Source: Bacteroidales bacterium
GTDB taxonomy: Bacteria; Bacteroidota; Bacteroidia; Bacteroidales; UBA7960
Assembly (NCBI GenBank): GCA_007129945.1
Contig: SKUN01000123.1
Location: 1-45,047 of the forward strand
Reading direction: 5' to 3'
Length of the DNA: 45,047 bases
The position numbers and the translations under genes are program-made. This document shows, piece by piece, positions 6,014-37,465 of the stretch; the first letter of the stretch is position 1; each line of letters begins with the position of its first letter. The notes under the pieces are model-generated. The model was not told the origin of the DNA, searched no databases, and was given only the letters and a program-made list of their open reading frames with translations.

Positions 6014-7231
6014 TTATCCGAACATCTCCCTGACGGTGGCAAGGCCTTTAATTAGTGTATCAATTTCCTGTCGTGTGTTATATACGGCAAATGATATTCT
6101 GATGGTTCCCGGAATGCTGAAGTAGTCAAGGACCGGCTGTACACAGTGATGGCCGGTCCGCACCGCGATCCCCAGTTTGTCGAGAATGGTGCCTGCATCG
6201 TAGGGGTGAATGTCGCCCGGCAGGAACGAAATCGCCCCTGCCCGGTGTTCCGGTGTCCCGATGAATCGGATTCCGTCAACGTTTTTAAGCCCTTCGAGCG
6301 CGTATTGAAGCAAGTCGCTTTCGTGGGCGGAAATGGCATCATGCCCTGTTTCACTGATAAAATTCATGGCAGCTTCCAGACCAAGCACCCCGGCCACATT
6401 GGGGGTGCCTGCTTCAAACTTAAAGGGCAGGTCGTTATAGGTGGTTTTTTCAAAACTCACGTCTTTTATCATTTCACCACCGCTCTGATAAGGGGGCATT
6501 TGTTCCAGCCACTTTTCTTTGCCGTACAATACGCCAATCCCCATCGGGCCGTACATCTTGTGCCCGGAAAAACAGTAGAAATCACAATCAAGTGCCTGCA
6601 CATCAACGGGCATATGAGGAGTAGCCTGTGCCCCGTCAACCAGTACGGGGATTTCTTTCCGGTGGGCAGCTTCAATGATTTCCCTGACAGGATTGATGGT
6701 GCCAAGTGCATTACTTACATGGGTGATGGCAACCAGCCGGGTTTTCTCGTTGAGTAACTTATGGTATTCAGGTATGATGAGCTCCCCTTTCTGGTTAATG
6801 GGGATCACTTTGAGACTTGCCTGGTGTTCCTGGCAGGCGATCTGCCATGGAACAATGTTGGAGTGATGCTCCATGGCCGAAATCAGGATTTCGTCACCGG
6901 GTTTCAGAATTTTTTTGCAGAAAGAGTGGGCCACCAGGTTGATGGATTCTGTGGTGCCCCGGGTAAATACAACCTCATGGGGGTGCATTGCATTGATAAA
7001 AGAAGCCGTGGTTTTTCTGGCCTGTTCATAGGCGTCTGTGGCCATCTGGCTCAAAAAGTGTGCGCCCCGGTGGATGTTGCTGTTTTCGGTTTCGTAATAT
7101 TTTTGGAGCCGTTCAATGACCACCTTCGGTTTCTGGGTGGTAGCGGCATTGTCAAAATAGACCAGGGGACGGTTATTGACCTCCATGGAAAGTATGGGGA
7201 ACTGTTTACGAAGTTGTTCAATCTTACTCAC
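6014..7231 (-). CDS. sufS: Cysteine desulfurase SufS
   Basis: This PLP enzyme releases sulfur from cysteine as an enzyme-bound persulfide for Fe-S assembly. The 405-aa protein matches the group II (SufS/CsdA) family: PLP-binding Lys225 in FSGHKMYGP, EHHSNIVPW, and catalytic Cys363 in RTGHHCVQP on a short loop typical of SufS rather than IscS. The start is GTG (MSKIEQLRKQFPIL), 18 bases after the sufD stop. Confidence 0.97.
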   Translation of the reverse strand: MSKIEQLRKQFPILSMEVNNRPLVYFDNAATTQKPKVVIERLQKYYETENSNIHRGAHFLSQMATDAYEQARKTTASFINAMHPHEVVFTRGTTESINLVAHSFCKKILKPGDEILISAMEHHSNIVPWQIACQEHQASLKVIPINQKGELIIPEYHKLLNEKTRLVAITHVSNALGTINPVREIIEAAHRKEIPVLVDGAQATPHMPVDVQALDCDFYCFSGHKMYGPMGIGVLYGKEKWLEQMPPYQSGGEMIKDVSFEKTTYNDLPFKFEAGTPNVAGVLGLEAAMNFISETGHDAISAHESDLLQYALEGLKNVDGIRFIGTPEHRAGAISFLPGDIHPYDAGTILDKLGIAVRTGHHCVQPVLDYFSIPGTIRISFAVYNTRQEIDTLIKGLATVREMFG

Positions 7232-7249
7232 AGAGCAATTGTTTTTGAT

Positions 7250-8656
7250 TTATAATTTGCCCGGGTCGATGTTGAATGTGGTGGGCTCCTTGCTGTTACA
7301 ATGCAGCATGCACTGGTCACAGATTGACAATTCTCCCTTCAGTCGCTTCTCGACCATGTGTTGGATTCGTTCGCGCAGGGCATCGATTTTTATTTCGCTG
7401 ACCACCTCCCCTGCAAAAGCGATCATCATCAGTTGCCTGGCTGATCGTTCGCAAAGACCGCGTGACCGCATGTAAAACATGGCTTCAGGATCCAGCTGCC
7501 CTACTGTGGCACCGTGGGAGCATTTGACATCGTCCGCATAAATTTCCAGGTGTGGCTGGGTGTTGGCCCTGGCCTCATCAGTAAGCAGAATGTTGTGATT
7601 GTTCTGATGAGCCTCGGTTTGCTGGGAATGTCTTTGTACCATCACCTTGCCGGAGAAAACGGCCGTTGCTTCATCATCCAGAATTCCCTTGTATAATTGA
7701 TTGCTGTAGCAGGAATGTTCGCGGTGATCAATGTAGAGCTGGTTGTCTACATGCTGGTTGCTGTCCACCAGGTAAAGTCCGTAATGTTCAGACCGGCAGC
7801 CGGTGCCTGCAATGGCCACATCCAGGATGTTTTTGGTGAAGCCCCCGTTCAGTGTAATGATGTTGCTGTAAAGTCTGCTGGATGCATCCTGATGAAAGAA
7901 GTTACTGGTCACCAGGGCGGAATTACGCCCCTTGTTTTGAATTTTATAATGGGATACTGCTGCTCCCTCCCCGGCATAGGTTTCCATTACCGTATTGGTA
8001 AAGCTGATATTGTGGGTAAGGGAGTGGTCGCAATGCACCAGTGTCAGTTCTGCGTTGTTCTCTGCAATGACGAGATGACGTGGCTGCAAAAAGACCGGGT
8101 ATTCAGTGTTCACAATGTTGATCAGCTGAATCGGCTTCTCCACTTTCACCCCCTCGGGCACGTATATGAATAACCCGTCCTGCACAAAGGCTGTGTTAAG
8201 GGCGGCCAGCGTATGGGTCTCCGTTTTAACGGCTTTCCCGTAATACCGGTCTACCAGTTCCGGGTAAACCTCCATGGCTTTTGCCAGGCTTCCTATTATG
8301 GTGCCGTCAGGCAGTTGGGTCAGGGGAGCATGCTTATACACAAACCATCCGTTCAGCAGGGTAATGCTGAAGGTGTCCAGGTCGTAAACGTCACAGGTAA
8401 ATATTTTATCCACATCCATGTGACGGCTTTGGTTGCTGAAATCGAATACAAACTCCGTGTTTAGCAACGGAGTCAGGTCAGTAAACCGCCAGTTTTCCTG
8501 ATTCGTTTCCGGAAACCCGTTCTCGCGGAAGCGTGAAAAGGCATGTTTGCGCAGCCTGTTCACGAAAGGTGTGGCCTTTCCCCGGATGGCTTCCTGCTCC
8601 TGTTGGTAAAGCTCCAGCAACCTGTCTTTTAATAATGTTGTATGTACGGTATCCAT
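7250..8656 (-). CDS. sufD: Fe-S cluster assembly protein SufD
   Basis: SufD is a beta-helix subunit of the SufBC2D scaffold where clusters are built. The 468-aa product (MDTVHTTLLKDRLLELY) has the family C-terminus with the functionally important histidine in CSHGATVGQLDPEAMFYM and the helical RSARQLMMIAFAGEV tail. It begins only 6 bases after sufC ends. Confidence 0.96.
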   Translation of the reverse strand: MDTVHTTLLKDRLLELYQQEQEAIRGKATPFVNRLRKHAFSRFRENGFPETNQENWRFTDLTPLLNTEFVFDFSNQSRHMDVDKIFTCDVYDLDTFSITLLNGWFVYKHAPLTQLPDGTIIGSLAKAMEVYPELVDRYYGKAVKTETHTLAALNTAFVQDGLFIYVPEGVKVEKPIQLINIVNTEYPVFLQPRHLVIAENNAELTLVHCDHSLTHNISFTNTVMETYAGEGAAVSHYKIQNKGRNSALVTSNFFHQDASSRLYSNIITLNGGFTKNILDVAIAGTGCRSEHYGLYLVDSNQHVDNQLYIDHREHSCYSNQLYKGILDDEATAVFSGKVMVQRHSQQTEAHQNNHNILLTDEARANTQPHLEIYADDVKCSHGATVGQLDPEAMFYMRSRGLCERSARQLMMIAFAGEVVSEIKIDALRERIQHMVEKRLKGELSICDQCMLHCNSKEPTTFNIDPGKL

Positions 8657-8662
8657 GAAGGC

Positions 8663-9409
8663 TTACTTTTCCTGTTTTATCCAGTCATACCCCTTTTCTT
8701 CCAGTTCCATCGCCAGCTCTTTCGGCCCGCTTCTTATGATGCGTCCGTCATACAGCACATGCACAAAATCTGGTACAATGTAATCGAGCAGCCGCTGGTA
8801 GTGGGTGATCACGATGGTGGCGTTGTCCTCCCTTTTGAGCTTGTTCACCCCGTTTGCCACCACTTTCAGGGCATCGATGTCAAGTCCTGAGTCTGTTTCG
8901 TCCAGGATGGCCAGGCGGGGTTCGAGCAGGGCCATCTGAAAAATCTCATTCTTTTTCTTTTCCCCGCCGGAGAACCCTTCGTTCACGGCGCGATTGGTCA
9001 GTTTTGAGTGAATGTCAACCATTTTTTTCTTCTCCTCCATCAGCTTCAGGAACTCGGCCCCTGTTAAGGGCTCAAGCCCCAGATGCTTGCGCTTTTCGTT
9101 CAGGGCTGTGCGCATGAAGTTCGCGATACTGACCCCGGGTATTTCCACCGGGTACTGAAACCCCATAAAAATCCCTTCCCTTGCGCGCTCCTCAGCCGGC
9201 ATGTCAAACAGGTTTTGCCCCAGGTAGGTGATTTCCCCGCTCTCCACGGTAAAGAGTTCCCGCCCCGCTATTACGGATGCCAGCGTACTCTTGCCGGAAC
9301 CATTCGGCCCCATGATGGCATGAACTTCACCCTCGTTGACCTCCAGGTTCAATCCTTCGATAATGATTTTTCCGTGAACGGAAACACTCAGGTCTTTTAT
9401 TTTTAACAT
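8663..9409 (-). CDS. sufC: Fe-S cluster assembly ATPase SufC
   Basis: SufC is the ABC-type ATPase that drives conformational change of the SufBC2D scaffold. In 248 aa it shows Walker A GPNGSGKST (residues 34-42), the ABC signature FSGGEKKKNE (146-155) and Walker B LAILDETDSGLD (167-178). The Glu-Lys-Lys-rich signature is specific to SufC. It is separated from sufB by a 182-bp repeat-filled gap, the longest in the operon. Confidence 0.97.
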   Translation of the reverse strand: MLKIKDLSVSVHGKIIIEGLNLEVNEGEVHAIMGPNGSGKSTLASVIAGRELFTVESGEITYLGQNLFDMPAEERAREGIFMGFQYPVEIPGVSIANFMRTALNEKRKHLGLEPLTGAEFLKLMEEKKKMVDIHSKLTNRAVNEGFSGGEKKKNEIFQMALLEPRLAILDETDSGLDIDALKVVANGVNKLKREDNATIVITHYQRLLDYIVPDFVHVLYDGRIIRSGPKELAMELEEKGYDWIKQEK

Positions 9410-9420
9410 AGTCTAGTAGC

Positions 9421-9470
9421 GTTTGACCCCTTCGGGGTCGTTAGTAACGTGTGACCCCTTCGGGGTCGTT
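9421..9470. repeat. Two palindromes GACCCCTTCGGGGTC between sufB and sufC
   Basis: The 15-base perfect inverted repeat GACCCCTTCGGGGTC (6-bp arms, TTC loop) occurs at 9425-9439 and 9453-9467, each followed by GTT and preceded by TG or TTG, at 28-bp spacing. Each copy would form a stable RNA hairpin just upstream of the sufC start. Confidence 0.9.
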
Positions 9471-9473
9471 TCG

Positions 9474-9587
9474 TGGGCAATTCCACCATCCTTATCCCAA
9501 CCAACAACCAACAACCGCTCAGCCTCGTCCACCGTCTATGGGCAACTCCCACAATCCTCCGCCCATGAGAACCAACAACCAACAACC
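9474..9587. repeat. Imperfect direct repeats of 43 and 49 bp between sufB and sufC
   Basis: Copy A (9474-9516) and copy B (9539-9587) both begin TGGGCAA and end with AACCAACAACCAACAACC, with related sequence between. On the transcribed (minus) strand the ends read as GT-rich GGTTGTTGGTTGTTGG runs. No credible coding is seen here; the short minus ORF across it is Arg/Gly/Thr rich and repeat-derived. Confidence 0.85.
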
Positions 9588-9591
9588 ATTC

Positions 9592-11040
9592 TTACCCCAC
9601 GCTTCCCTCCAGACTCACCGACAACAATTTCTGAGCCTCCACGGCAAACTCCATGGGAAGCTTTGAAAGCACCTCTTTGGCATAGCCATTGACAATCAGT
9701 CCGATGGCTCCTTCCATGTCAATTCCTCTTTGCAGGCAGTAAAACAGCTGGTCTTCGGATATCTTACTGGTGGTTGCCTCATGTTCCACAATCGAGGATC
9801 GGTTGCCCACCTCGATATAGGGGAAAGTGTGGGCTCCGCTCTGGTCTCCGAGGAGTAGTGAGTCACACTGTGAGAAATTCCGGGCGTTCTCTGCCCTGCG
9901 GCTGGTTTTTACAAGCCCCCGGTAACTGTTATTGCTTCTGCCGGCAGAGATCCCTTTACTGATGATGGTACTTTTGGTGTCCTTCCCCAGGTGGATCATT
10001 TTGGTGCCCGTGTCGGCCTGCTGCCGTTTATTGGTCACGGCTACAGAATAAAATTCTCCGGTTGACCGGTCGCCCTTCAGTATCAGGCTGGGATATTTCC
10101 AGGTAATGGCAGATCCTGTCTCCACCTGGGTCCAGGATATTTTCGAGTTTTCTCCCTCACATATTCCACGCTTTGTAACGAAGTTGTACACCCCGCCTTT
10201 GCCATCCTTGTCGCCCGGCCACCAGTTCTGAACGGTCGAATATTTTACTTCGGCATCCTTGTGTGCGACGATCTCTACAATGGCCGCATGCAATTGATGT
10301 TCATCACGGATTGGTGCCGTACATCCTTCCATATAGCTGACATAGCTGCCTTCTTCGGCCACGATAAGGGTTCTCTCAAACTGCCCGGTATTGGCTGCAT
10401 TGATGCGGAAGTAGGTGGACAACTCCAGCGGACATTTCACCCCTTTGGGAATATAAGCAAATGATCCGTCACTGAATACTGCCGAGTTCAGGGCCGCAAA
10501 GAAGTTGTCCGTATGGGGGACCACGCTGCCCATGTATTTCTTTACCAGGTCGGGATATTTCTGAACGGCTTCACTGAAGGAGCAAAAAATGATCCCCTGT
10601 TCTGAAAGGGTCTTTTTGAATGTGGAACCCACAGACACACTGTCCATCACAGCATCGACGGCCACACCCGCCAGTTTTTTACGCTCATCCAGGGGGATGC
10701 CCAGCTTGTCAAAGGTTTCCAGGAGTTCCGGATCCACCTCGTCCAAGCTCTCATATTTGGGCTTTTTACGCGGGGCTGAGTAATAGATCTTATCCTGATA
10801 GTTGATGGGCGGATACTCCAGATGGGCCCATTCCGGCTCCTGCATGGTCTGCCAGTAACGGAAAGCCTTCAGGCGGAACTCCAGCATAAACTCAGGCTCA
10901 TTTTTTTTTGCGGAAATAAAACGAACGGTATCCTCAGTGAGTCCGGGAGGTGCCTGGTCCATGTCAATATCGGTGTAAAAACCGTATTTGTAATCGGAAC
11001 CGGTTACTTCGTTCAGTATGTCATTATTCTTGTCTTCCAT
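9592..11040 (-). CDS. sufB: Fe-S cluster assembly protein SufB
   Basis: SufB is the core scaffold subunit on which the nascent cluster forms. The 482-aa protein is full length. It has the beta-helix core with [16 protein letters not shown] (about 199-214), [16 protein letters not shown] (238-253), and Cys392 in [11 protein letters not shown], the position of the essential SufB cysteine in E. coli. It is the first gene of the suf operon, behind a strong promoter. Confidence 0.97.
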
Positions 11041-11082
11041 GCAGGGTCATTCTTTGGCTGCCAGTATGATAGTGCAGCACAG

Positions 11083-11110
11083 TGATCTTATTTAGATCAA
11101 TTTTAAATTG
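11083..11110. promoter_or_regulatory. Two adjacent palindromes in the suf leader
   Basis: TGATCTTATTTAGATCA (11083-11099, 6-bp arms) and CAATTTTAAATTG (11098-11110, 6-bp arms, 1-base centre) abut directly downstream of the -7 box of the suf promoter, at and just after the expected transcription start. This is a typical place for a repressor site; the protein is not identified. Confidence 0.5.
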
Positions 11111-11114
11111 AATT

Positions 11115-11146
11115 GCAAAGATAGCAAACAAGCATGAAATAATCAA
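11115..11146 (-). promoter_or_regulatory. suf operon promoter
   Basis: On the minus strand TTG (11144-11146), 20 bases, then TATCTTTG (11116-11123) followed by C, a full match to the Bacteroidetes consensus. It lies 76 bases upstream of the sufB ATG. Confidence 0.75.
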
Positions 11147-11166
11147 CAAGGCGTAGGGGAATATGT

Positions 11167-12234
11167 TCAGGAGCGCAAACTTGTGACATCTCCGATCATT
11201 TCCAGTCCTGCAAACCTGCCGGTTCCTTCAAAAAGCAGTTTGCCGTTGTTGTTTTTGACGGCTATGTGCAGACTGGCACTCAGATTTTCGTGGATTACCC
11301 TGTTCATTTGGCCCTGGTTAGGTGCCTTCAGTGCTCCGGGATCATTTTTTTTGCCCGGGAGGGTTTTTCCCTGCGCTCCCCGGATATCTATCCGGAGGTC
11401 ATTTTTTTTGACGGTCAGGAATAATTCGTTGTCTCTTCTTTCCAGCCTGGTAATCTTTGCGCCATTGTAGGTGGCAAAAAGATGTGGTTTGCCTTTGTGC
11501 AGGAAAAACCCCAGGAATCCGGGGAAACTTTTCCCCACCCAGGGAACATTCGCCAATGAAAGCATGAAAGAGGTGTTTTCTGTCTGAAAATGGTTTGACT
11601 GCATCCATATCCATGCTTCAGGCATGGATGTACCCCAGTCTTTTTCAATATAGCCTTTCCCGTTGTGAAAGTCAGCTTGCTGGCCATTGAGGTTCAGTTG
11701 TCCGCTCAGACGGTGATCCATACTTACCACGCCATGGTAACATTCCATGAAAGGGGCATAGCGATACCACCCCATGATCCCGGGTCTGAGCAGGGTGGCC
11801 TGCAGCGGGGTCTGCCCGGAAAAAAATACCTCACCCTGAAAATGACCCCTGGGTGATTGGAGATCTAACCTTATATGGCTGCGGGAAATTTCGTTTTCAC
11901 CGATCTTCACATGGAAGTCGCTCTTCGAAAAAAGGAATGACTCCGCCGGAAACCGGAAATACCAGGTCTCGCCGGTCTTGCCGTTGATCACCTGAATAAA
12001 GGCATGGGGGTCTTCATTGGTGAGTGAAACGCCCGGGATAAATGACCAGGTATGGTTGCCGCCGGCACTCACCAGCTTATAATACCATCCTTCAAAATAG
12101 TTCTTTCTTTTCCTGTTGCCCTGAAACCAGGAAGGATTCCAGATTTTAGCTAGATCGTACAGGCCGGAAAAACCCCTTTCCCGAACATGCCCGGGAAAAT
12201 CCGAAGATTGACTCATTGGCTGAGTTTTGGTCAC
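11167..12234 (-). CDS. Tocopherol cyclase-like family protein
   Basis: This 355-aa protein resembles the plant and cyanobacterial tocopherol cyclase family (Pfam Tocopherol_cycl). Visible family features are YFEGWYYKLV (about residues 46-55), WSFIPGV, HAFIQVI, WYRYAPFMECYHGV, then GKGYIEKDWGTSMPEAWIWMQSNHF, where the family has its conserved KDWG core. No signal peptide is visible. The GTG start overlaps the rprY stop by 4 bases (GTGA), so it is translationally coupled; an ATG six codons later is an alternative. In heterotrophic bacteria the substrate is unknown; a role on a prenylquinone or other lipid is only a guess. The family call is firm, the function is not. Confidence 0.85.
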   Translation of the reverse strand: MTKTQPMSQSSDFPGHVRERGFSGLYDLAKIWNPSWFQGNRKRKNYFEGWYYKLVSAGGNHTWSFIPGVSLTNEDPHAFIQVINGKTGETWYFRFPAESFLFSKSDFHVKIGENEISRSHIRLDLQSPRGHFQGEVFFSGQTPLQATLLRPGIMGWYRYAPFMECYHGVVSMDHRLSGQLNLNGQQADFHNGKGYIEKDWGTSMPEAWIWMQSNHFQTENTSFMLSLANVPWVGKSFPGFLGFFLHKGKPHLFATYNGAKITRLERRDNELFLTVKKNDLRIDIRGAQGKTLPGKKNDPGALKAPNQGQMNRVIHENLSASLHIAVKNNNGKLLFEGTGRFAGLEMIGDVTSLRS

Positions 12235-12944
12235 GAACTTTTCCCCTCCGGGATGAGCAGTTTAAAGCCTTTGCCATGTACATTCAGCAACTCCACCTCC
12301 GGATCGTCTTTCAGGTATTTGCGCAGCTTGGCAATATACACATCCATGCTCCTTGCATTGAAGTAGTTGTCGTCCAGCCAGATCTTGTTCAGTGCTTCTG
12401 AACGGTCAAGTACACTATTGGCCCGGTCACACAGCATTTTAAGCAACTGGGCTTCCTTGGAAGTGAGTTTTTCTTCGCTGCTATCATGTTTCAGGAGCTG
12501 CCTGGCGTAATCAAAGGTGTACTTCCCTATCTGGAACAAGGTTTTGTCCGAATCACCGGGTTTCTCATCGTAGGTCCGCCGGTGAATGGCGGTGATGCGC
12601 AACAAAAGTTCCTCCATGCTGAAGGGCTTTGTTATGTAGTCGTCCGCCCCGATTTTCAACCCCTCCAGGATGTCGTCCTGCATATTCTTTGCGGTGAGGA
12701 AAAGGATGGGTACTTTCTTGTCTACTTTTCGGATATCCCTTGCCAGGGTGAATCCATCCTTGACCGGCATCATCACATCCAGCACACAAAAGGAGAAATT
12801 GTCTTTCAGATAAGCATCATAGGCTTCCTGTCCGTCGACGCACAATGTGGTGAAAAATCCTTTGGCCTCAAGATAGGCTTTCAGGATGGTGCCGAGGTTC
12901 GGGTCATCTTCGGCCAGCAGAATTTTGATTTTTGACTTTTCCAT
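12231..12944 (-). CDS. rprY: OmpR-family response regulator, RprY-like
   Basis: This DNA-binding response regulator (237 aa) has a receiver domain at residues 7-120, with acidic pair Asp13-Asp14, phosphorylation site Asp56, Thr84 and Lys106, and a winged-helix domain at about 135-232. The sequence resembles Bacteroides RprY closely (KILLAEDDPNLGTILKAYLEAKGF and IGADDYITKPFSMEELLLRI). RprY is linked to stress and redox responses in Bacteroidetes. It starts 15 bases after the sensor gene ends and overlaps the tocopherol-cyclase-like gene. Confidence 0.93.
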   Translation of the reverse strand: MEKSKIKILLAEDDPNLGTILKAYLEAKGFFTTLCVDGQEAYDAYLKDNFSFCVLDVMMPVKDGFTLARDIRKVDKKVPILFLTAKNMQDDILEGLKIGADDYITKPFSMEELLLRITAIHRRTYDEKPGDSDKTLFQIGKYTFDYARQLLKHDSSEEKLTSKEAQLLKMLCDRANSVLDRSEALNKIWLDDNYFNARSMDVYIAKLRKYLKDDPEVELLNVHGKGFKLLIPEGKSS

Positions 12945-12959
12945 AGAGGGTCAGTTTCA

Positions 12960-14591
12960 TTAGTTGTTGGTCTGTTCATTCCCTTTGCCGTCATATCCAA
13001 AGGGGATGAAGACTGTAAACCGGCTGCCTTTGCCGGGTTCGCTCTCCAGGGAAATATGCCCGCCATGTTTTTCGACAATGGCCTTTACATAACTCAGACC
13101 CAGTCCGAAGCCTTTAACGTCATGGACATTTCCCGTGGAAACCCGGTACAAGTTATCAAAAATTTTCTTTTGATTGGCCAAGCTGATCCCGATTCCCCGA
13201 TCATCCACATGCACAATCACCCCGTTGCTGCTGTTTTGGGTTGTAACAGTGATCTCCGGGCTGTGCGGTGAATATTTGTTTGCGTTGTCCAACAGGTTAG
13301 AAAATACGTTGGTCAGGTGAATTTTATCTGCCTGGATGAAGCTATATTCTGCATCAAAATTTGTATTGATTTTCCCGTGTTTTGCCGCCACCTGTATCCC
13401 GATTTTCTGAATGGCGCTATCGATCATATCATGCAGATCCAGCCCGGTCACGTTCAGCCTGATCTTTGCTTTTTCGATGAGCGCAGTCTGCAGTACTTTC
13501 TCTGTCAATAGCCCCAGACGCTGGTTTTCCTCGTTAATTACATTGATATAACTTTGGTAAAGATTCTCAGATTTTTGTACATCCTGATCGCTCAGGGCCT
13601 GGCAGGCCAGGGAAATGGTTGAAATGGGGGTTTTCAACTCGTGGGTCATGTTGTTGATGAAATCATTCTTCATGACCGAGAGTTTCTTTTGCCGGATGAT
13701 GGTAAGGATGGTAATGGCAAAGGAAGAGATAATCACCAGGATCAGCACAATGGAGGTGGCCAGCATGGCATTCATCTGCGAAAGAATGTACCGTTCCTGC
13801 TGGGGAAAGTGCAGTAGCAGGTATTCGGGGTTCATAAAGATGTCGTTGGGGAAAAGCTGAAAGGCATAAGGGCTTTCCAGCAGTTGCCGGCTGTGTTCCC
13901 CTGTTTTTTCTTTCACCAGGGCATGCCCGGCCGGGTTGTAAATGCCGAATTCATATTGTGTTTTTATCCCCTGCCTGGTAAGCTCCTCAGCCAGCAGTGA
14001 ATCCAGGGAGGAAATGCTGCCTTCGTTGGTGACCTGAAAGGTGTACCTGCTGGAAAACAGCTCATCAAACAGGTCATTGATAATCTGGCTTCTCTCAAAG
14101 AATCTGCTGAAGGGATCATCCATGCCCTGACGCCTGCTGTCAGGGAGATACCCCGGGGCTGAACCCGGATACCTGCTGCGTCCGCTGATCACTATGGAAG
14201 TATCAAAAGCACTGGTCTGCTGCCTGTCACTCAATTGTCCGCTGAGCGGCAAATCAACCTCGGCCTGAAGGATTCCTGTGGGACGCTCTTGCTGGACAGC
14301 CTCCCCCTGCTGGGAAAAAATGCGGTTATAATAAAGCTGGTTCAGGGAGTCAAGCATCTGCGTCAGCTGGTTCAGGTGCCGGCTGCGCTCTTGCTGTTCC
14401 ATCATCTTACGGGCAAGCTCCTGTTTGTTAAACTGATTGATGGCCCGGGTGGCTGCTTCACTGACCCCCCGGTCGAAATTCACCTCCTTGATTGCTACCG
14501 CATTGCGTATCCAGTAAAGCTGGATGCCCAGTAAGCCTACCAATGAGATGGTAATCGCAATTACCACCAGTATGATAAATCTTTTTTTCAT
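12960..14591 (-). CDS. rprX: Sensor histidine kinase, RprX-like
   Basis: This membrane sensor (543 aa) has a first membrane segment at residues 5-28, a periplasmic domain of about 245 residues, a second segment at about 277-300, then HisKA with phosphorylated His317 in NNMTHELKTPIS. The ATPase domain shows the N box (NLLDNANKYSP), VDDRGIGI and GFGLGLSYVKAIV. It pairs with the adjacent RprY-like regulator. The periplasmic domain is Gln, Ser and Arg rich and has no recognised ligand domain. A TACCTTTG box precedes it. Confidence 0.93.
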   Translation of the reverse strand: MKKRFIILVVIAITISLVGLLGIQLYWIRNAVAIKEVNFDRGVSEAATRAINQFNKQELARKMMEQQERSRHLNQLTQMLDSLNQLYYNRIFSQQGEAVQQERPTGILQAEVDLPLSGQLSDRQQTSAFDTSIVISGRSRYPGSAPGYLPDSRRQGMDDPFSRFFERSQIINDLFDELFSSRYTFQVTNEGSISSLDSLLAEELTRQGIKTQYEFGIYNPAGHALVKEKTGEHSRQLLESPYAFQLFPNDIFMNPEYLLLHFPQQERYILSQMNAMLATSIVLILVIISSFAITILTIIRQKKLSVMKNDFINNMTHELKTPISTISLACQALSDQDVQKSENLYQSYINVINEENQRLGLLTEKVLQTALIEKAKIRLNVTGLDLHDMIDSAIQKIGIQVAAKHGKINTNFDAEYSFIQADKIHLTNVFSNLLDNANKYSPHSPEITVTTQNSSNGVIVHVDDRGIGISLANQKKIFDNLYRVSTGNVHDVKGFGLGLSYVKAIVEKHGGHISLESEPGKGSRFTVFIPFGYDGKGNEQTNN

Positions 14592-14624
14592 CTTCTTTAA
14601 ACCAGGATGGTTGAACCCTCCCTA

Positions 14625-14632
14625 CAAAGGTA
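14625..14632 (-). promoter_or_regulatory. -7 box for the rprX-rprY operon
   Basis: TACCTTTG on the minus strand, 34 bases upstream of the rprX ATG, matches TAnnTTTG. Upstream there is only a GGGTTT at roughly the -33 distance, not a clean TTG. Confidence 0.45.
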
Positions 14633-14733
14633 AGATGGAAATAAAGATTAAACCCATACTTAACACATTTTAACAGCCTTTAACGTAATTTACATCGCCA
14701 CCCTTCAGATATAATGGATGGGAAAAGGTTTTT

Positions 14734-15309
14734 TTATAACCGGCCTGCCACTTTGTCCCAGTCAACAATTTTCCAGAACGCAGCCAGGTATTCAGGTTTC
14801 CTGTTCTGGTAGTCGAGGTAAAACGCATGTTCCCACATGTCGCATGTCAGCAGGGGTGTTTTCCCGTCACGCAGCGGATTACCGGCATTGGCCGTTTTGA
14901 CGATCTCCAGTTTTCCGTCCTTATTCCTTACCAGCCAGGTCCATCCCGATCCGAATAAGGTCGTGGCCGCCCCGGTAAATTCTTCTTTGAACTTTTCAAA
15001 AGAGCCAAAATCCGCCTCTATGGCTTCTTTTAGCTTTCCTTCAGGTTCTCCGCCACCATTGGGAGAGAAACCTTCCCAATAAAAAGTGTGATTCCACACC
15101 TGTGCGCCGTTGTTGAAAACTCCGCCGTCTGCCTTCATGACAATCTCTTCAAGGCTTGATTCCTCGAAAGGGGTACCGGGTATCAGGTCATTGAGCTTTT
15201 TCACATAGGTCATGTGGTGTTTTCCGTAATGATATTCAATGGTCTTTTTGGAGACATGGGGCTCGAGTGCTTCCGGGGAATAAGGCAGCTTGGGTAATGT
15301 GTGTGTCAT
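14734..15309 (-). CDS. sodB: Superoxide dismutase, iron type
   Basis: The enzyme converts superoxide to oxygen and hydrogen peroxide. The 191-aa protein is full length and cytoplasmic. Metal ligands His27, His74, Asp157 and His161 are all present ([11 protein letters not shown] and [13 protein letters not shown]). Gln70 in [13 protein letters not shown] is the arrangement of iron-type enzymes, although Bacteroidetes enzymes of this type can be cambialistic. The gene stands alone between rprX and the first permease. Its peroxide product would normally be cleared by catalase, which is broken at 40459-41731. Confidence 0.95.
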
Positions 15310-28637: not shown

Positions 28638-29201
28638 ATGCAGATCAAGCCCCCGCTTGTTTCCTATTGTGAGCAGGTCAGAAACTTACCTCCGGATAAT
28701 CCGGACAGAAAACACCATGACCATGTACACGGTTTTGCCGTTAAGGATGACAATGAACTATTCGGAAGACTGATTATGGAGATCAACCAGGCCGGATTGA
28801 ACTGGACGCTCATCCTGAAAAAAGAGGAAAACTTCCGAAGGGCTTTTGAAGGCTTTGATATTTTGAAAGTGGCTGCATACGGAGAGGACGATAAAAGCCG
28901 CTTGCTCGCTGATGCAGGCATTATTCGTAACAGGCGGAAGGTGGATGCCGTCATTCACAATGCCGGGGTTATCCGGGGGTTGCAGCGGGAATACGGTTCA
29001 TTCTCATCCTGGCTCGATCATCATCATCCCATGGGTATTGATGGGTGGGTGCGGCTGTTTAAAAAGACCTTTCGTTTTACCGGGCCGGAAATCGTCAACG
29101 AATGGCTGATGAGTACGGGCTACTTGCCTGGTGCCCACAGGGAGGATTGCCCGGTGTATGACAAGGTGATCAGGTCAGGGCCGGAATGGCTGAAATTGTA
29201 G
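28638..29201 (+). CDS. tag: DNA-3-methyladenine glycosylase I
   Basis: Tag removes 3-methyladenine from alkylated DNA. The ATG at 28638 (MQIKPPLVSYCEQV) gives 187 aa; the frame runs up to 28530 but that part lies in the promoter. The zinc-snap ligands can be placed: Cys11, His27, His167 and Cys171 (HREDC). The conserved LIMEINQAGLNWTLILKK segment contains Glu48, at the catalytic acid position, and IIRNRRKVDAVIHNA follows. The first motif reads HHDHVHG where E. coli has YHDNEWG, so the Trp there is lost; this is the one divergence from the family. Confidence 0.9.
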   Translation: MQIKPPLVSYCEQVRNLPPDNPDRKHHDHVHGFAVKDDNELFGRLIMEINQAGLNWTLILKKEENFRRAFEGFDILKVAAYGEDDKSRLLADAGIIRNRRKVDAVIHNAGVIRGLQREYGSFSSWLDHHHPMGIDGWVRLFKKTFRFTGPEIVNEWLMSTGYLPGAHREDCPVYDKVIRSGPEWLKL

Positions 29202-29203
29202 AC

Positions 29204-30094
29204 ATGCGAGAAGCCAGATATTATAGCATACAGCAAAATGAAAAGGTGCGTTGCGGGCTTTGCCCCCATCAATGTTCCCTCGCCCCCGGTGAAACCGGCT
29301 TGTGCCGTGTAAGAAAAAATGCAGGGGGGCAACTGGTCTCCCTGGCATATGGCAGATTGTCCGGCCTGCATATGGATCCCATTGAGAAAAAACCTTTGTA
29401 CCGGTTTTTCCCCGGCAGCAGGATCCTTTCTGTGGGGAGTTATGGGTGCAATTTTCGCTGCCCATGGTGCCAGAATGCGTCAGTATCCCAGTGTACCCCA
29501 GGCAATGGTACTGCTGAATCAGGAAGTGTCTCCGCAGACGATGCGCTTACCGAACCCGCTGATATACTCGCCATGGCCCGGAAGCAACAGAGTATTGGGG
29601 TTGCCTATACCTATAATGAACCCACTGTTTGGTTTGAGTACATGATGGACATTGCCCTGCTGATCCGCCGTGCCGGCATGCAGAATGTGGTGGTATCCAA
29701 CGGGTACATCAACCCGGATCCCTTAAATGAGTTGCTGGAGGTGACAGATGCATTCAACATCGACCTCAAATCTTTTGATCCCGGTTTTTATGCGCAATAT
29801 ACCAATGGCAGGTTGCAGCCGGTGTCAGACACCCTGAAAGCCATTGCCGGAAAGGGGCGGCACCTGGAGATCACTTTCCTTGTGATTCCCGGGCTGAATG
29901 ATGACCTGGCGCAGTTCAGAGACATGACAAGGTGGATTGCCGGACACCTGGGCAATCATACGGTTTTGCACATCAACAGGTATTTTCCCGCCTGGCATTT
30001 CAGTAATCCCCCTACCCCGGCTGACACACTTCGAAATATGAAAACAATAGCCGGTAAATATCTGACCCATATATACCTGGGCAACATTGGTTAA
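29204..30094 (+). CDS. amrS: AmmeMemoRadiSam system radical SAM enzyme
   Basis: In this radical SAM protein the start at 29204 (MREARYYSIQQNEKVRCGLC) matches the usual family N-terminus and begins 2 bp after the tag stop; an ATG at 29186 would overlap tag by 16 bp. It gives 296 aa. The CxxxCxxC [4Fe-4S] motif is YGCNFRCPWCQ (Cys82, 86, 89). An N-terminal group of four cysteines (CGLCPHQC, then GLC) is a second typical feature. The family partners an AMMECR1-like and a MEMO-like protein in a modification pathway of unknown product. The MEMO gene follows. Confidence 0.92.
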   Translation: MREARYYSIQQNEKVRCGLCPHQCSLAPGETGLCRVRKNAGGQLVSLAYGRLSGLHMDPIEKKPLYRFFPGSRILSVGSYGCNFRCPWCQNASVSQCTPGNGTAESGSVSADDALTEPADILAMARKQQSIGVAYTYNEPTVWFEYMMDIALLIRRAGMQNVVVSNGYINPDPLNELLEVTDAFNIDLKSFDPGFYAQYTNGRLQPVSDTLKAIAGKGRHLEITFLVIPGLNDDLAQFRDMTRWIAGHLGNHTVLHINRYFPAWHFSNPPTPADTLRNMKTIAGKYLTHIYLGNIG

Positions 30095-30130
30095 TTTTCT
30101 GATCATTCACAGATAGCTATTCTAAATACC

Positions 30131-30979
30131 ATGAAAACTACATCAGATATCAGGCAAGCCAGGGTGGCCGGGATGTTTTATCCGGCCACGGCGGGTGAAA
30201 TCCGCACACAGCTCGGCAGGGAGGTCCAAAATGTCAGGAAAGCAATGGATGAGCGTTCCCCTGAGGGGGTGATTCTGGGGGGCGTGTTGCCCCACGCCGG
30301 AATGGACTATTGCGCGCATCATGCCGTGCACTTTTTTGAGTCGTTGCGCGTGTCCGGCCAAAAACCTGATACCGTCGTGATTGTTCATCCCAATCACAGC
30401 GGGTATGGTCCTCCTGTTTCGGTCGACGGTCATCATTTCTGGGAGACCCCGCTGGGACAGGTGGGTGTGGACCTGGAACTTTCTGAGGCCTCCATGCTCC
30501 CGTTTTCGTCGAGGGCCCAGCTAAGGGAGCACTCTTCAGAGGTAATTGTGCCTTATCTGCAGTATTTCCTCGATGAAGGTTTCCGGATTATGTCCGTGAA
30601 TGTACTTCAGCAGAGCGTGGAAATTGCACGAGAGGTGGCTGAAAGAATTGCCAACGGAGCGAATCAGTTGGGGCGTAATGTGTTGTTGCTGGCTTCATCA
30701 GATTTTTCCCACTTTTTAACCCCCGAGGAGTCGGCGCCACTGGATGACAAGGTATTGGCAAAAATCCTGGAGAAAGACACCCCCGGGGTGGAAAAAATGG
30801 TTCATCAATACCATGTTTCGGTCTGCGGATTTGGCCCGGTGATGACCTTGATGGAATATGCTGCCCTGACAGATCCCGCCTATCGTGTCCGTTTGTTAAG
30901 CAGGGGTCATTCAGGTGAAGTGATCCCTTCCGGCAAAGTGGTCAATTATATGTCTTTGTTGTTTTCTTCGGAGAAATAG
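30131..30979 (+). CDS. amrB: AmmeMemoRadiSam system protein B (MEMO1 family)
   Basis: This 282-aa MEMO-family protein belongs to the dioxygenase-like fold related to catechol ring-opening enzymes. The metal-site elements look present: LPHAGMDYCAHHAV (near residue 55), HPNHSGYG (about 88), LLASSDFSHFL (about 197) and CGFGPVMTLMEYA. It is 36 bp behind the radical SAM gene. The third member (AMMECR1) is not in the window. Confidence 0.92.
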   Translation: MKTTSDIRQARVAGMFYPATAGEIRTQLGREVQNVRKAMDERSPEGVILGGVLPHAGMDYCAHHAVHFFESLRVSGQKPDTVVIVHPNHSGYGPPVSVDGHHFWETPLGQVGVDLELSEASMLPFSSRAQLREHSSEVIVPYLQYFLDEGFRIMSVNVLQQSVEIAREVAERIANGANQLGRNVLLLASSDFSHFLTPEESAPLDDKVLAKILEKDTPGVEKMVHQYHVSVCGFGPVMTLMEYAALTDPAYRVRLLSRGHSGEVIPSGKVVNYMSLLFSSEK

Positions 30980-31072
30980 AAACCGGGCCCCGTGGATGTT
31001 CACGGTAAATGGTTAAGTTTGTCCGGATCCGGCCGGGGCTTTCCGGCAGCAGAAATAAACAGGAGAAACGGT

Positions 31073-31801
31073 ATGAAATACATCAATGTATTGTTTTTCG
31101 TCTTTATGGTGGTAATGAATTACCTGGCCAATGCCCTGCCCCTGGGCGGCAAAACCACCGGTGAATTGTCGGCAGCTTATCCGAACCTGTTTGTGCCGGC
31201 GGGTGTCACCTTTTCTATATGGGGCGTTATCTACCTGATGCTGCTTGGTTTTTGCCTGCTTCAGTTCCGTGAACAAAACAGGGCCCTCGTGGAAGCGACC
31301 GGATGGGCCTTTGCCCTGAGCTGCCTGCTCAATGGCCTTTGGATAGTGGCCTGGCATTATAAGTCCCTGCCTGCATCACTGCTGATCATGCTGGCATTGC
31401 TTGTGGTGCTGGTATACATCAACTACCAGTTGCGTGGTCAGTCAATGGGGCTGACAAGGGCGGCCTTCGGCGTTTACCTGGGCTGGATCAGTATTGCCAC
31501 CATCGCCAATGTTACAGCCCTGTTGGTAAATTATAACTGGGGTGGCTGGGGGATAACGGATGTCAGCTGGGCCATATTGATGATCATTGTGGGGCTCCTG
31601 ATCACAGCCTTTGCGCTGTACCGCCTACAGAGCCCGTTTATCGGCCTTGCTGTCATCTGGGCATTTATCGGGATATACCTTAACCGCCAGGGCGACTATC
31701 CTTCCATTGCTGCTACGGCTGTTGTTGCAGCGGTCATCATGGTCGCTTTTACCCTCTGGGCGTTCTGGAAACTTGCACCTTATAACCCTGCCAGTCAATG
31801 A
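31073..31801 (+). CDS. TspO/MBR-related (tryptophan-rich sensory-like) membrane protein
   Basis: The ATG at 31073 (MKYINVLFFVFMVVMNYLANALPLGG) gives 242 aa; an extension back to 30992 has a poor N-terminus. About eight hydrophobic segments and many Trp residues are seen. The motif YPNLFVPAGVTFSIWGVIYLM near residue 45 is that of bacterial proteins called tryptophan-rich sensory protein or TspO-related. They are longer than classical TspO (about 160 aa), and porphyrin binding is unproven. It overlaps the next gene by 4 bases (ATGA), so the two are translationally coupled. Confidence 0.7.
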   Translation: MKYINVLFFVFMVVMNYLANALPLGGKTTGELSAAYPNLFVPAGVTFSIWGVIYLMLLGFCLLQFREQNRALVEATGWAFALSCLLNGLWIVAWHYKSLPASLLIMLALLVVLVYINYQLRGQSMGLTRAAFGVYLGWISIATIANVTALLVNYNWGGWGITDVSWAILMIIVGLLITAFALYRLQSPFIGLAVIWAFIGIYLNRQGDYPSIAATAVVAAVIMVAFTLWAFWKLAPYNPASQ

Positions 31802-33540
31802 CCCGTTTTCTGCCCCGGAAACCTTTGCCGGAGAAATGGCTGAAAGCTGCAGTGGTCGGTAGTTTATGGGCCGCAGTAGAGATCATTCTCGGAAGCTTGT
31901 TACACAATATGCGCATCCCCCTGGCAGGAAGCTTTCTCTCCTTTGCCACTGTTTACCTGGTAATCTCCTTTTATCAATTATGGCCTCTGCCGGGGCTGAT
32001 CTGGCGGGCAGGGCTGATATGCGCCCTGATGAAGTCCATTTCTCCCAGCGCCATTGTGATCGGGCCGATGATCGGCATTTTTTCCGAGGCCTTGTTGCTG
32101 GAGGCGGTGATCCGCCTGTTGGGTTCCCACCCCGTTGCTTTTGCCTTTGCCGGAGCCCTGGCCGTATTCAGCGCATTGGCACAAAAAGCATTTACCCTGC
32201 TGGTGCTCTATGGCTGGGATATCGTTTTGCTGTTGGAAAACATGGTTGACTTTGCAGTTTCGCAGACGGGCTTTACGGCCTTGTCTACCCCCGCGTTGTT
32301 GCTTGTGCTTTCAGGGATCTACCTTGCGGCCGGTGCTTCTGCCGCCCTGCTGGGATACCGGACCGGGCAAAGTTTCCTGAGGAATAGGTCTGATCACACA
32401 ATGCCTCTGCAGATTGCACCGCACGCCCAAAGTGAGTTGTTCCGGCATACCAGGAAACAACACAATGCCATTCCTGTTTTGTTGATGATTTTTGCTTTGC
32501 TCGTCATTGGGATGGGCGTGATTACCAGGGCTCCATTGGTTGCTTCATTTATTTTTACGCTGGGATTTATGATTGCAATGTACTCCAGGTACAGCCCGGT
32601 GATGAGATACCTGGGAAAACCGGCACTGTGGGTGCAACTGCTTCTTATCCTGTCTTTTTCCGGTATTTTTTACGGCGGAGTTTCGCAGGCTTCGCTGCTG
32701 AGTACTGAAGGGCTGACTGTGGGGGTCAGGATGATATTCAGGGCCCTGGTGTTGCTCACATCATTTTCTGCCATCAGTGCAGAAATGAAAGATCCGGCCA
32801 TAAAAAACCTTTTACACAAACGTGGATTGCATAATGTGTATCAGTCTGTTGACCTCGCTTTTTCCGCCCTCCCTGCCATCATGTCCGCTTACCGTTTCAG
32901 GGGCGTGGGGTTAAAGGCCATAAAAAAACTGGTGTTTGGGATGCTGGGGAGTGCGCAGGCTCTCCTGAACGAAATGATGCAGATGGAGGCCCATAAGCCG
33001 ACCATATTTATTATCTCCGGGGTGGTGCACTCCGGGAAAACTTCTGCAGCAAAAATAGTGGTGCAGTTACTCCGCAGCCGTGGATTGCGCCTCCGGGGAT
33101 TCTTTTCAGCCGGTGATACGGATGGTTCCGATCGAAGTGCCTATTATATTGAGGATGTTCTTTCCGGTGAAAGAAAAATCCTGTGCGATGAAACTCCCAT
33201 GCCGGATGGTTTTCGGGCCGGCCGGTTTTTTTTCTCCGAAGAAGGAATCGCGTGGGGAAGGTCCCTGTTGGAGCGATCGGTGCACGACCGGGCTGATTTC
33301 GTGGTAATCGATGAGATTGGTCCGCTTGAGATCCGGGACGGGGGATGGGCTCCCGCCATCGGACACCTTTTGAGCCGCAGCCGAACTCCCCATATCTGGG
33401 TTGTCAGGGAGCGGCTGACGGATCTTGTGGTTCGCAAATGGAGCGTAGGAGATGTGTATATATTTGACCTTGAAGAGGATCGAGCTGAAAACATCGTTAA
33501 TCAGCTGCTTGAGTGGAAAAGAACTTCAGCCACTGTTTAA
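31798..33540 (+). CDS. Membrane protein fused to THEP1-type NTPase (ECF S- and T-like domains)
   Basis: In this 580-aa protein residues 15-190 hold about six membrane helices resembling an ECF-transporter substrate (S) component. Residues 222-395 hold further helices followed by a cytoplasmic helical part with an AYRFRG segment, resembling the T component (CbiQ/EcfT). Residues 402-577 are an NTPase_1/THEP1 domain with Walker A GVVHSGKTS (408-416) and Walker B FVVIDEIGPLE (501-511). If this reading is right, one chain joins membrane parts with a P-loop domain that is not an ABC ATPase. The NTPase call is firm; the S/T resemblance is judged by eye. The gene is coupled to the TspO-like gene and shares its stop with hom. 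Confidence 0.75.
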   Translation: MTRFLPRKPLPEKWLKAAVVGSLWAAVEIILGSLLHNMRIPLAGSFLSFATVYLVISFYQLWPLPGLIWRAGLICALMKSISPSAIVIGPMIGIFSEALLLEAVIRLLGSHPVAFAFAGALAVFSALAQKAFTLLVLYGWDIVLLLENMVDFAVSQTGFTALSTPALLLVLSGIYLAAGASAALLGYRTGQSFLRNRSDHTMPLQIAPHAQSELFRHTRKQHNAIPVLLMIFALLVIGMGVITRAPLVASFIFTLGFMIAMYSRYSPVMRYLGKPALWVQLLLILSFSGIFYGGVSQASLLSTEGLTVGVRMIFRALVLLTSFSAISAEMKDPAIKNLLHKRGLHNVYQSVDLAFSALPAIMSAYRFRGVGLKAIKKLVFGMLGSAQALLNEMMQMEAHKPTIFIISGVVHSGKTSAAKIVVQLLRSRGLRLRGFFSAGDTDGSDRSAYYIEDVLSGERKILCDETPMPDGFRAGRFFFSEEGIAWGRSLLERSVHDRADFVVIDEIGPLEIRDGGWAPAIGHLLSRSRTPHIWVVRERLTDLVVRKWSVGDVYIFDLEEDRAENIVNQLLEWKRTSATV

Positions 33541-37134: not shown

Positions 37135-37337
37135 CATTGCCTTTTCCCGTGCGGGTCAGACAGGCTGTTATCAGGAAAGAATTGAATATGCGCTACACGC
37201 GCATAGAGTAAACAGAGCCATGCATGATGTGACAGAGGAAAGAAAACCTGTGGGCAATGATCGAATGGATCAGGTCAGAATGGTTTGGCCAAAGTGGCCA
37301 CAAGAATGGATGTGTGGTGTGCATCGTAATGGTTTTA

Positions 37338-37434
37338 ATTTATAACTCCCGTTCGGGCAGGTTTTAGCACCTTTGTCATCAGACCGGTTGCTAGGGCATC
37401 ACTGAGCCTGTTCTCTCAGCCCTTCCTTATAAAT
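37338..37434 (-). ncRNA. SAM riboswitch (SAM-I type) of the met operon
   Basis: On the minus strand the order is TTATAAGG (P1 side), a GGGCTGAG...CTCAG...GCCC nested stem, TAGCAACC, a short stem and AAGGTGCTAA, then the CCCGAACGGG hairpin and the closing P1 TTATAA. The GCAACC and GGTGCTAA blocks and their spacing are hallmarks of the SAM-I (S box) aptamer. It lies 26 bases below the promoter. No intrinsic terminator directly follows, so the control may act on translation or on a Rho-type step in the long leader. Confidence 0.88.
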
Positions 37435-37465
37435 AAACCCTTTTTTGAGAAGGATGTATCTGCGG

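Follow-up and report, generated by a model that had tools for sequence, protein, structure and literature searches.

A predicted membrane protein joining ECF-like domains to a THEP1-type NTPase is linked to molybdenum cofactor genes in Bacteroidota

ECF transporters import vitamins and cofactors and combine separate S (such as YkoE and CbiM) and T (EcfT/CbiQ) membrane parts with P-loop NTPases, a linked pair of ABC ATPases (EcfA/EcfA'). NTPases of the THEP1/NTPase_1 family (PF03266) carry conserved Walker A and Walker B motifs, and the members with solved structures (1ye8, 2i3b) are single-domain proteins. A related P-loop domain is found in DUF2478 NTPases and in MobB, which is a soluble adaptor. 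The use of a cofactor riboswitch to control an uptake operon with a TonB-dependent receptor has a precedent in B12 uptake. Free molybdenum cofactor (Moco) is labile and, to our knowledge, organisms that require Moco are generally held to make their own. One described case of mature Moco being obtained from outside is dietary uptake by Caenorhabditis elegans, an animal in which the transporters are unknown; according to a 2022 paper, no other organism had been examined for uptake of Moco from outside, nor had such uptake been seen in one (PMC9793310). In a survey covering about 5,900 genomes, several hundred organisms had molybdoproteins but an incomplete Moco pathway; these were left unexplained, with the suggestion that biosynthetic components await discovery or that Mo-independent forms exist (PMC6147048). 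Our own literature search, with most subscription papers lying outside it, returned nothing on ECF components combined with THEP1, on molybdate combined with TonB and ECF, or on bacterial import of Moco.

The DNA analysed here (the window, 45,047 nucleotides from a Bacteroidales bacterium) encodes a protein, termed STN, that resembles ECF transporters in having S-like and T-like membrane parts and a P-loop NTPase. It differs from them in that all three are fused in one chain, the NTPase is of the NTPase_1/THEP1 type and the genes of the family are linked to those for Moco. We propose, with a probability of roughly one half, that STN is the inner-membrane unit of an acquisition system for molybdopterin or for the finished molybdenum or tungsten cofactor.

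Table 1. Features of the window and of related loci; positions without a locus name refer to the window
Feature	Position	Strand	Extent or basis
STN fusion gene	31798..33540	+	Intact ORF, 580 aa; S-like, T-like and NTPase_1
S-like membrane domain	31798..32397	+	Residues 1-200; about six predicted membrane helices
T-like membrane domain	32455..32994	+	Residues 220-399; hhalign to separate T genes
NTPase_1/THEP1 domain	32995..33519	+	Residues 400-574; PF03266
Walker A GVVHSGKTS	33019..33045	+	Residues 408-416; 26-member alignment
Walker B region DFVVIDEIGPLE	33295..33330	+	Residues 500-511; 26-member alignment
TspO/MBR-like membrane protein gene	30992..31801	+	TspO_MBR PF03073, E=8e-7
Radical SAM gene, then Memo-family gene	29186..30979	+	
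SAM riboswitch	37337..37435	-	RF00162
Moco riboswitch loci			RF01055; L063, L064, L065, L066, L067, L075, L176, L178
Second S-like gene, L176	4777..5349		More divergent
Second S-like gene, L178	4852..5433		More divergent
DUF4213/DUF364 gene, L092	10347..11153	-	'Putative heavy-metal chelation'
Carboxymuconolactone decarboxylase-family gene, L066	11665..11991	-	
Moco cluster, L167 (G000:C181)	6590..14901		
Moco cluster, L169	3606..9912		

Domain architecture of STN

The first-pass annotation described ECF-transporter-like membrane domains fused to a THEP1-type NTPase, and the fusion is real. The fusion is no artefact: the reading frame is intact, and the protein recurs, usually at full length and at identities as low as about 30%, in 34 of the 59 related genomes searched. 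One scan of genome contigs gave two near relatives; a search of viral contigs gave none. Models of the single domains, made from relatives, assign residues 7-193 to S, 221-399 to T and 400-572 to N. Residues 1-400 match nothing in Pfam or NCBIfam, and the C-terminal region matches PF03266 over residues 404-570 (E=1e-18, well above the cut-off for the family).

The C-terminal assignment, including the Walker A (GVVHSGKTS) and Walker B (FVVIDEIGPLE) motifs noted in the annotation, is confirmed. All 26 members of the STN family match PF03266, both motifs are kept in essentially all of them, and the NTPase profile matches the solved NTPases 1ye8 and 2i3b. Unlike those proteins, however, the domain is here fused to, or in an operon with, membrane parts of transporter type. 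Weak profile matches to MobB occur in 11 of the 26 members, and the family shares MobA neighbours with the MobB and DUF2478 NTPases; its NTPase_1 scores are far above those for either.

Kinship of the membrane parts to ECF transporters differs in strength between the two domains. In hhalign comparisons a free-standing T homologue aligned with the CbiQ profile over its full length (94% probability, E=9e-8) and the fused T region did so at 52% (E=1.5e-4), while the fused region matched separate T genes at 97%. Single T sequences gave Pfam CbiQ matches below the cut-off. With unrelated control membrane families scoring at most about 5% against the T profiles, these profile-profile scores make a remote homology of the T-like part to CbiQ/EcfT well supported. 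In CbiQ, 28 of 29 sequences have RG at one alignment column close to the C-terminus, a motif that the T-like domains do not conserve. The AYRFRG segment of STN (residues 364-369), previously taken for a coupling region, is unique to the window protein and is not a conserved coupling motif.

The S-like domain is well defined as a family, its fused form matching separate S genes at 99.7% by hhalign. It contains the conserved motifs W-x3-E-x3-G-x2-LHN-x3-P-x2-G and K-x2-SPS-x4-GPM, and the first of these, as far as its proline, is strongly conserved together with the Walker motifs in the 26-member alignment. The best Pfam matches of free S proteins all lie below the cut-off: YkoE (PF09819)/ABC_cobalt at E=4e-4 and 2e-3, and Trep_Strep at 7e-3. 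The S-like profile matched neither CbiM (hhalign) nor PDB chains (profile search), and PDB sequences searched with the S and T profiles yielded no transporter matches. AlphaFold2 models had pLDDT values of 43 for STN (three-sequence input) and 52 for the S domain alone, and a PDB fold search with the latter returned noise only. With no confident structure model, membership of the S-component class depends on the weak profile matches, so that the proposal of ECF-like membrane domains holds well for the T part and is weakly supported for the S part.

Unfused forms and gene neighbourhoods

In a phylum-wide search of Bacteroidota, S-like and NTPase matches were found elsewhere as separate neighbouring genes. 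One arrangement is a four-gene operon encoding an S-like protein (∼200 aa), a T-like protein (∼185 aa), a TonB-dependent receptor (PF00593/PF07715) and an NTPase. Others include S-T fusions with the NTPase elsewhere, NTPase-S fusions, and S and NTPase genes beside those for xanthine dehydrogenase (XDH)-type enzymes. Only two loci (L092 and L093) have a TonB receptor next to the fused gene. In two loci with nap clusters (L176 and L178), the cluster is preceded by a further and more divergent S-like gene in addition to the S gene of the S-T-receptor operon, and two genomes (G234:C8 and G380:C8) have NTPase and XDH matches with no S detected and no MoaC, possibly reflecting a more divergent S.

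No ABC ATPase was recognised in the S/T/NTPase operons examined, where the linked P-loop partner is NTPase_1. Thus, the earlier suggestion that an unusual NTPase may replace the ABC subunits is viable. The membrane parts could instead belong to an otherwise ordinary ECF transporter that draws on shared EcfA ABC ATPases in trans, as Group II ECF modules do, with the THEP1 domain only regulating the transporter or processing the ligand. A few genomes with an S-like gene (for example, G120 and G140) do also have CbiQ. However, CbiQ was not detected in the genome of the window or in most S-positive genomes sampled, the C-terminal RG motif of CbiQ is not retained, and the fused or linked partner is NTPase_1. 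We consider dependence on EcfA in trans to be quite improbable.

About 30 of some 54 loci with S, T or NTPase genes lie within a few genes of molybdoenzyme or Moco genes. The neighbours encode molybdoenzymes, FeS-beta subunits, MobA, MoeA with MogA, NapDGH, XDH/XdhC, NarI and a ModE-like regulator. NCBIfam identified DMSO/selenate-reductase-type, DMSO_red_II and NapA-like molybdoenzymes, MobA, MoeA, MogA and a ModE repressor domain (E=6e-22), several of these matches falling below curated equivalog cut-offs so that the enzymes are named only approximately. Pfam matches confirmed TonB receptors, DUF364 and an XdhC that carries a MobA-like domain. The neighbour map itself was drawn from longest-ORF gene calls, a crude heuristic, with BLAST-based labels. 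The window has no molybdoenzyme or Moco gene near STN, but homologues sharing 50-52% identity with its protein lie next to MobA in G024 and G033, a PhsA-type operon in G025 and NarI in G047. Overall, the link of the family to Moco genes is strong.

The gene order within the window had suggested a different partner. The STN frame overlaps that of a TspO-like gene by four bases, and a partnership acting on a tetrapyrrole or cofactor had been proposed on this basis. A TspO-like gene lies beside STN only in the window and in its nearest relative (L083), and a tetrapyrrole substrate was rejected since TspO is merely a local neighbour in a family tied to Moco genes. Just upstream of the TspO-like gene are genes for a radical SAM protein and a Memo-family protein. 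Further downstream, a SAM riboswitch precedes minus-strand genes whose translations read as O-acetylhomoserine sulfhydrylase, homoserine acetyltransferase and homoserine dehydrogenase. Two other small families recur in the loci: a DUF4213/DUF364 protein repeatedly adjoins the fused gene (L092, L097, L102 and L088), and a small carboxymuconolactone decarboxylase-family protein is found beside S genes and moa clusters (L066, L070, L168 and L170).

Genes for the NTPase and MobA are adjacent in several loci. This adjacency and the weak MobB similarity would fit a membrane-anchored complex that handles Moco and imports nothing, in which the NTPase serves MobA as a MobB-like adaptor and the membrane part determines where exported molybdoenzymes have their cofactor attached. 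A complex of this kind is improbable, in that the TonB-dependent receptor of the operons described below and the CbiQ-like transporter domain point to uptake, and the association with absent MoaC and MoaE is left unexplained.

Riboswitches and missing cofactor synthesis genes

All eight S-T-receptor operons that were scanned have the Moco riboswitch RF01055 immediately 5' of S (E from 1e-9 to 1e-22), with the qualification that in L066 it precedes a carboxymuconolactone decarboxylase gene that is followed by S. The riboswitch was found in none of the 31 other loci scanned, which have other architectures; there was none upstream of fused genes and none in the window. The operon riboswitches align over the full RF01055 model but without helix P3, and a variant lacking P3 was associated with the tungsten cofactor by Regulski et al. 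(PMC2408646). In three of the genomes (G109, G411 and G182) no NTPase gene was recognised inside the riboswitch operon and one is present elsewhere in the genome. Of the eight genomes with the riboswitch, seven (G447, G282, G415, G109, G274, G411 and G182) have neither MoaC nor MoaE, and the eighth (G206) has MoaC and no MoaE. In G415, represented by 0.99 Mb that is part of the genome, tblastn found no MoaA, MoaC, MoeA, MogA or MOSC.

The same pattern extends to S-positive genomes as a whole. S was present in 39 of 395 genomes of the phylum (E<1e-10), and 33 of the 39 contain a molybdoenzyme of DMSO-reductase type (PF01568, 25 genomes) or XDH type (PF02738, 29 genomes), leaving six without one at the thresholds used. 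These values depend on counting PF01568 at E<1e-9, a cut-off chosen after the data had been seen, on adding a 942-aa enzyme of G282, and on setting aside, by judgement, weak ∼1000-aa PF01568 matches as ActB-like. MoaC was found in 13 of the 39 S-positive genomes versus 216 of the 356 others, and MoaE in three, so that 26 of the 39 are without MoaC and 36 without MoaE; two of those without either, G182 and G190, are single-contig genomes. Among MoaC-negative genomes, molybdoenzymes occur in 20 of 26 with S and in 3 of 41 arbitrarily chosen genomes without S (PF01568 in none, PF02738 in three; Fisher p=5e-9), and MoaE is present in 10 of 12 S-negative MoaC-positive controls compared with 3 of 13 S-positive MoaC-positive genomes (p=0.005), both p-values being too optimistic, as the Fisher tests ignore phylogeny and genomes of the same family are not independent. 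In Bacteroidota the S/T/NTPase system thus correlates with the occurrence of molybdoproteins without a complete pathway.

The genome of the window contains MoaA, MoaC, MoeA, a MOSC-MogA fusion and ModBC, with ModB and ModC adjoining the moa genes. MoaE was not detected in it; of the 59 genomes of the order three have MoaE, and none of these three is from the family to which the window belongs. Nine further S-positive genomes keep MoaC without MoaE. Hence, synthesis of cPMP and uptake of molybdate are presumably both within the capacity of the organism.

With cPMP presumably made in genomes of this type, import of the metal is a serious rival to import of a cofactor: S, T and NTPase would import molybdate, tungstate or a complex of metal and chelator, the chelate entering by way of the TonB receptor. 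Moco riboswitches elsewhere also control molybdate transporters, including modABC (PMC2408646), and the type lacking P3 is the one tied to tungsten. At one locus (L092) the fused gene and its TonB receptor are adjoined by a ModE-like regulator and the DUF364 'heavy-metal chelation' gene, and users of Mo that have no known Mo transporter exist (PMC6147048). However, metal alone would not help where MoaC and MoaE are missing, yet most S-positive MoaC-negative genomes have molybdoenzymes; the genome of the window already has ModB and ModC; and free molybdate normally needs no TonB receptor. The ModABC, WtpABC and TupABC systems, although likewise linked to molybdenum, belong to different protein families; no periplasmic binding protein with an ABC permease and ATPase of these types was recognised in the S/T/NTPase operons, and the latter are present even in genomes without MoaC and MoaE. 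The MoaC and MoaE results place metal import second to import of Moco or molybdopterin, and we regard it as unlikely, although the strongest of the alternatives.

A proposed route for molybdopterin or Moco

We infer the substrate, the direction of transport and the role of the NTPase as power source. Taken together, the molybdoenzymes of genomes in which MPT synthesis is not recognised, the Moco riboswitch and the TonB receptor suggest import of a pterin cofactor, and the fused protein is putatively assigned the substrate of the riboswitch operons by homology and shared neighbours. In the unfused version, the TonB-dependent receptor would carry the ligand across the outer membrane, to be bound in the inner membrane by the S-like protein. 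Coupling of S to the cytoplasmic THEP1-type NTPase, which would stand in for the ABC ATPases of ECF transporters, would fall to the CbiQ-like T protein, and hydrolysis would either drive release into the cell or pass the pterin to a neighbouring MobA/MocA/XdhC step. In the lineage of the window, S, T and NTPase are fused into one chain. By analogy, the operons may resemble those for riboswitch-controlled B12 uptake through a BtuB-type receptor, with the differences that the riboswitch is of the Moco type and that an S-T-NTPase unit takes the place of the BtuCD-type ABC importer in the inner membrane.

The complete arrangement, a new bacterial importer of molybdopterin or Moco comprising a TonB receptor with ECF-like S and T parts and a THEP1-type NTPase in place of ABC ATPases, and with a riboswitch over its unfused form, is a tentative proposal that we hold at somewhat short of even odds. 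If correct, Moco would be a salvageable cofactor in bacteria, which would account for the 'orphan' molybdoenzyme organisms in Bacteroidota, and transporters with a THEP1-like NTPase would constitute a class of their own.

Genomes like that of the window, with MoaC and without MoaE, would either have an MPT synthase of another kind or use both sources of the cofactor. If an MPT synthase has escaped recognition, no import is needed to account for the lack of MoaE. Two Moco clusters (L167 and L169) encode ModB/ModC, MoeA, a 266-aa MoaA, MoaC and a MOSC-MogA fusion without MoaD or MoaE, which suggests such an enzyme. The possibility that the 266-aa MoaA of G000 is a truncated gene was rejected: the protein ends in GG, keeps its C-terminal cysteines and recurs in G105, and from its sequence it looks like a short variant and not a broken gene.
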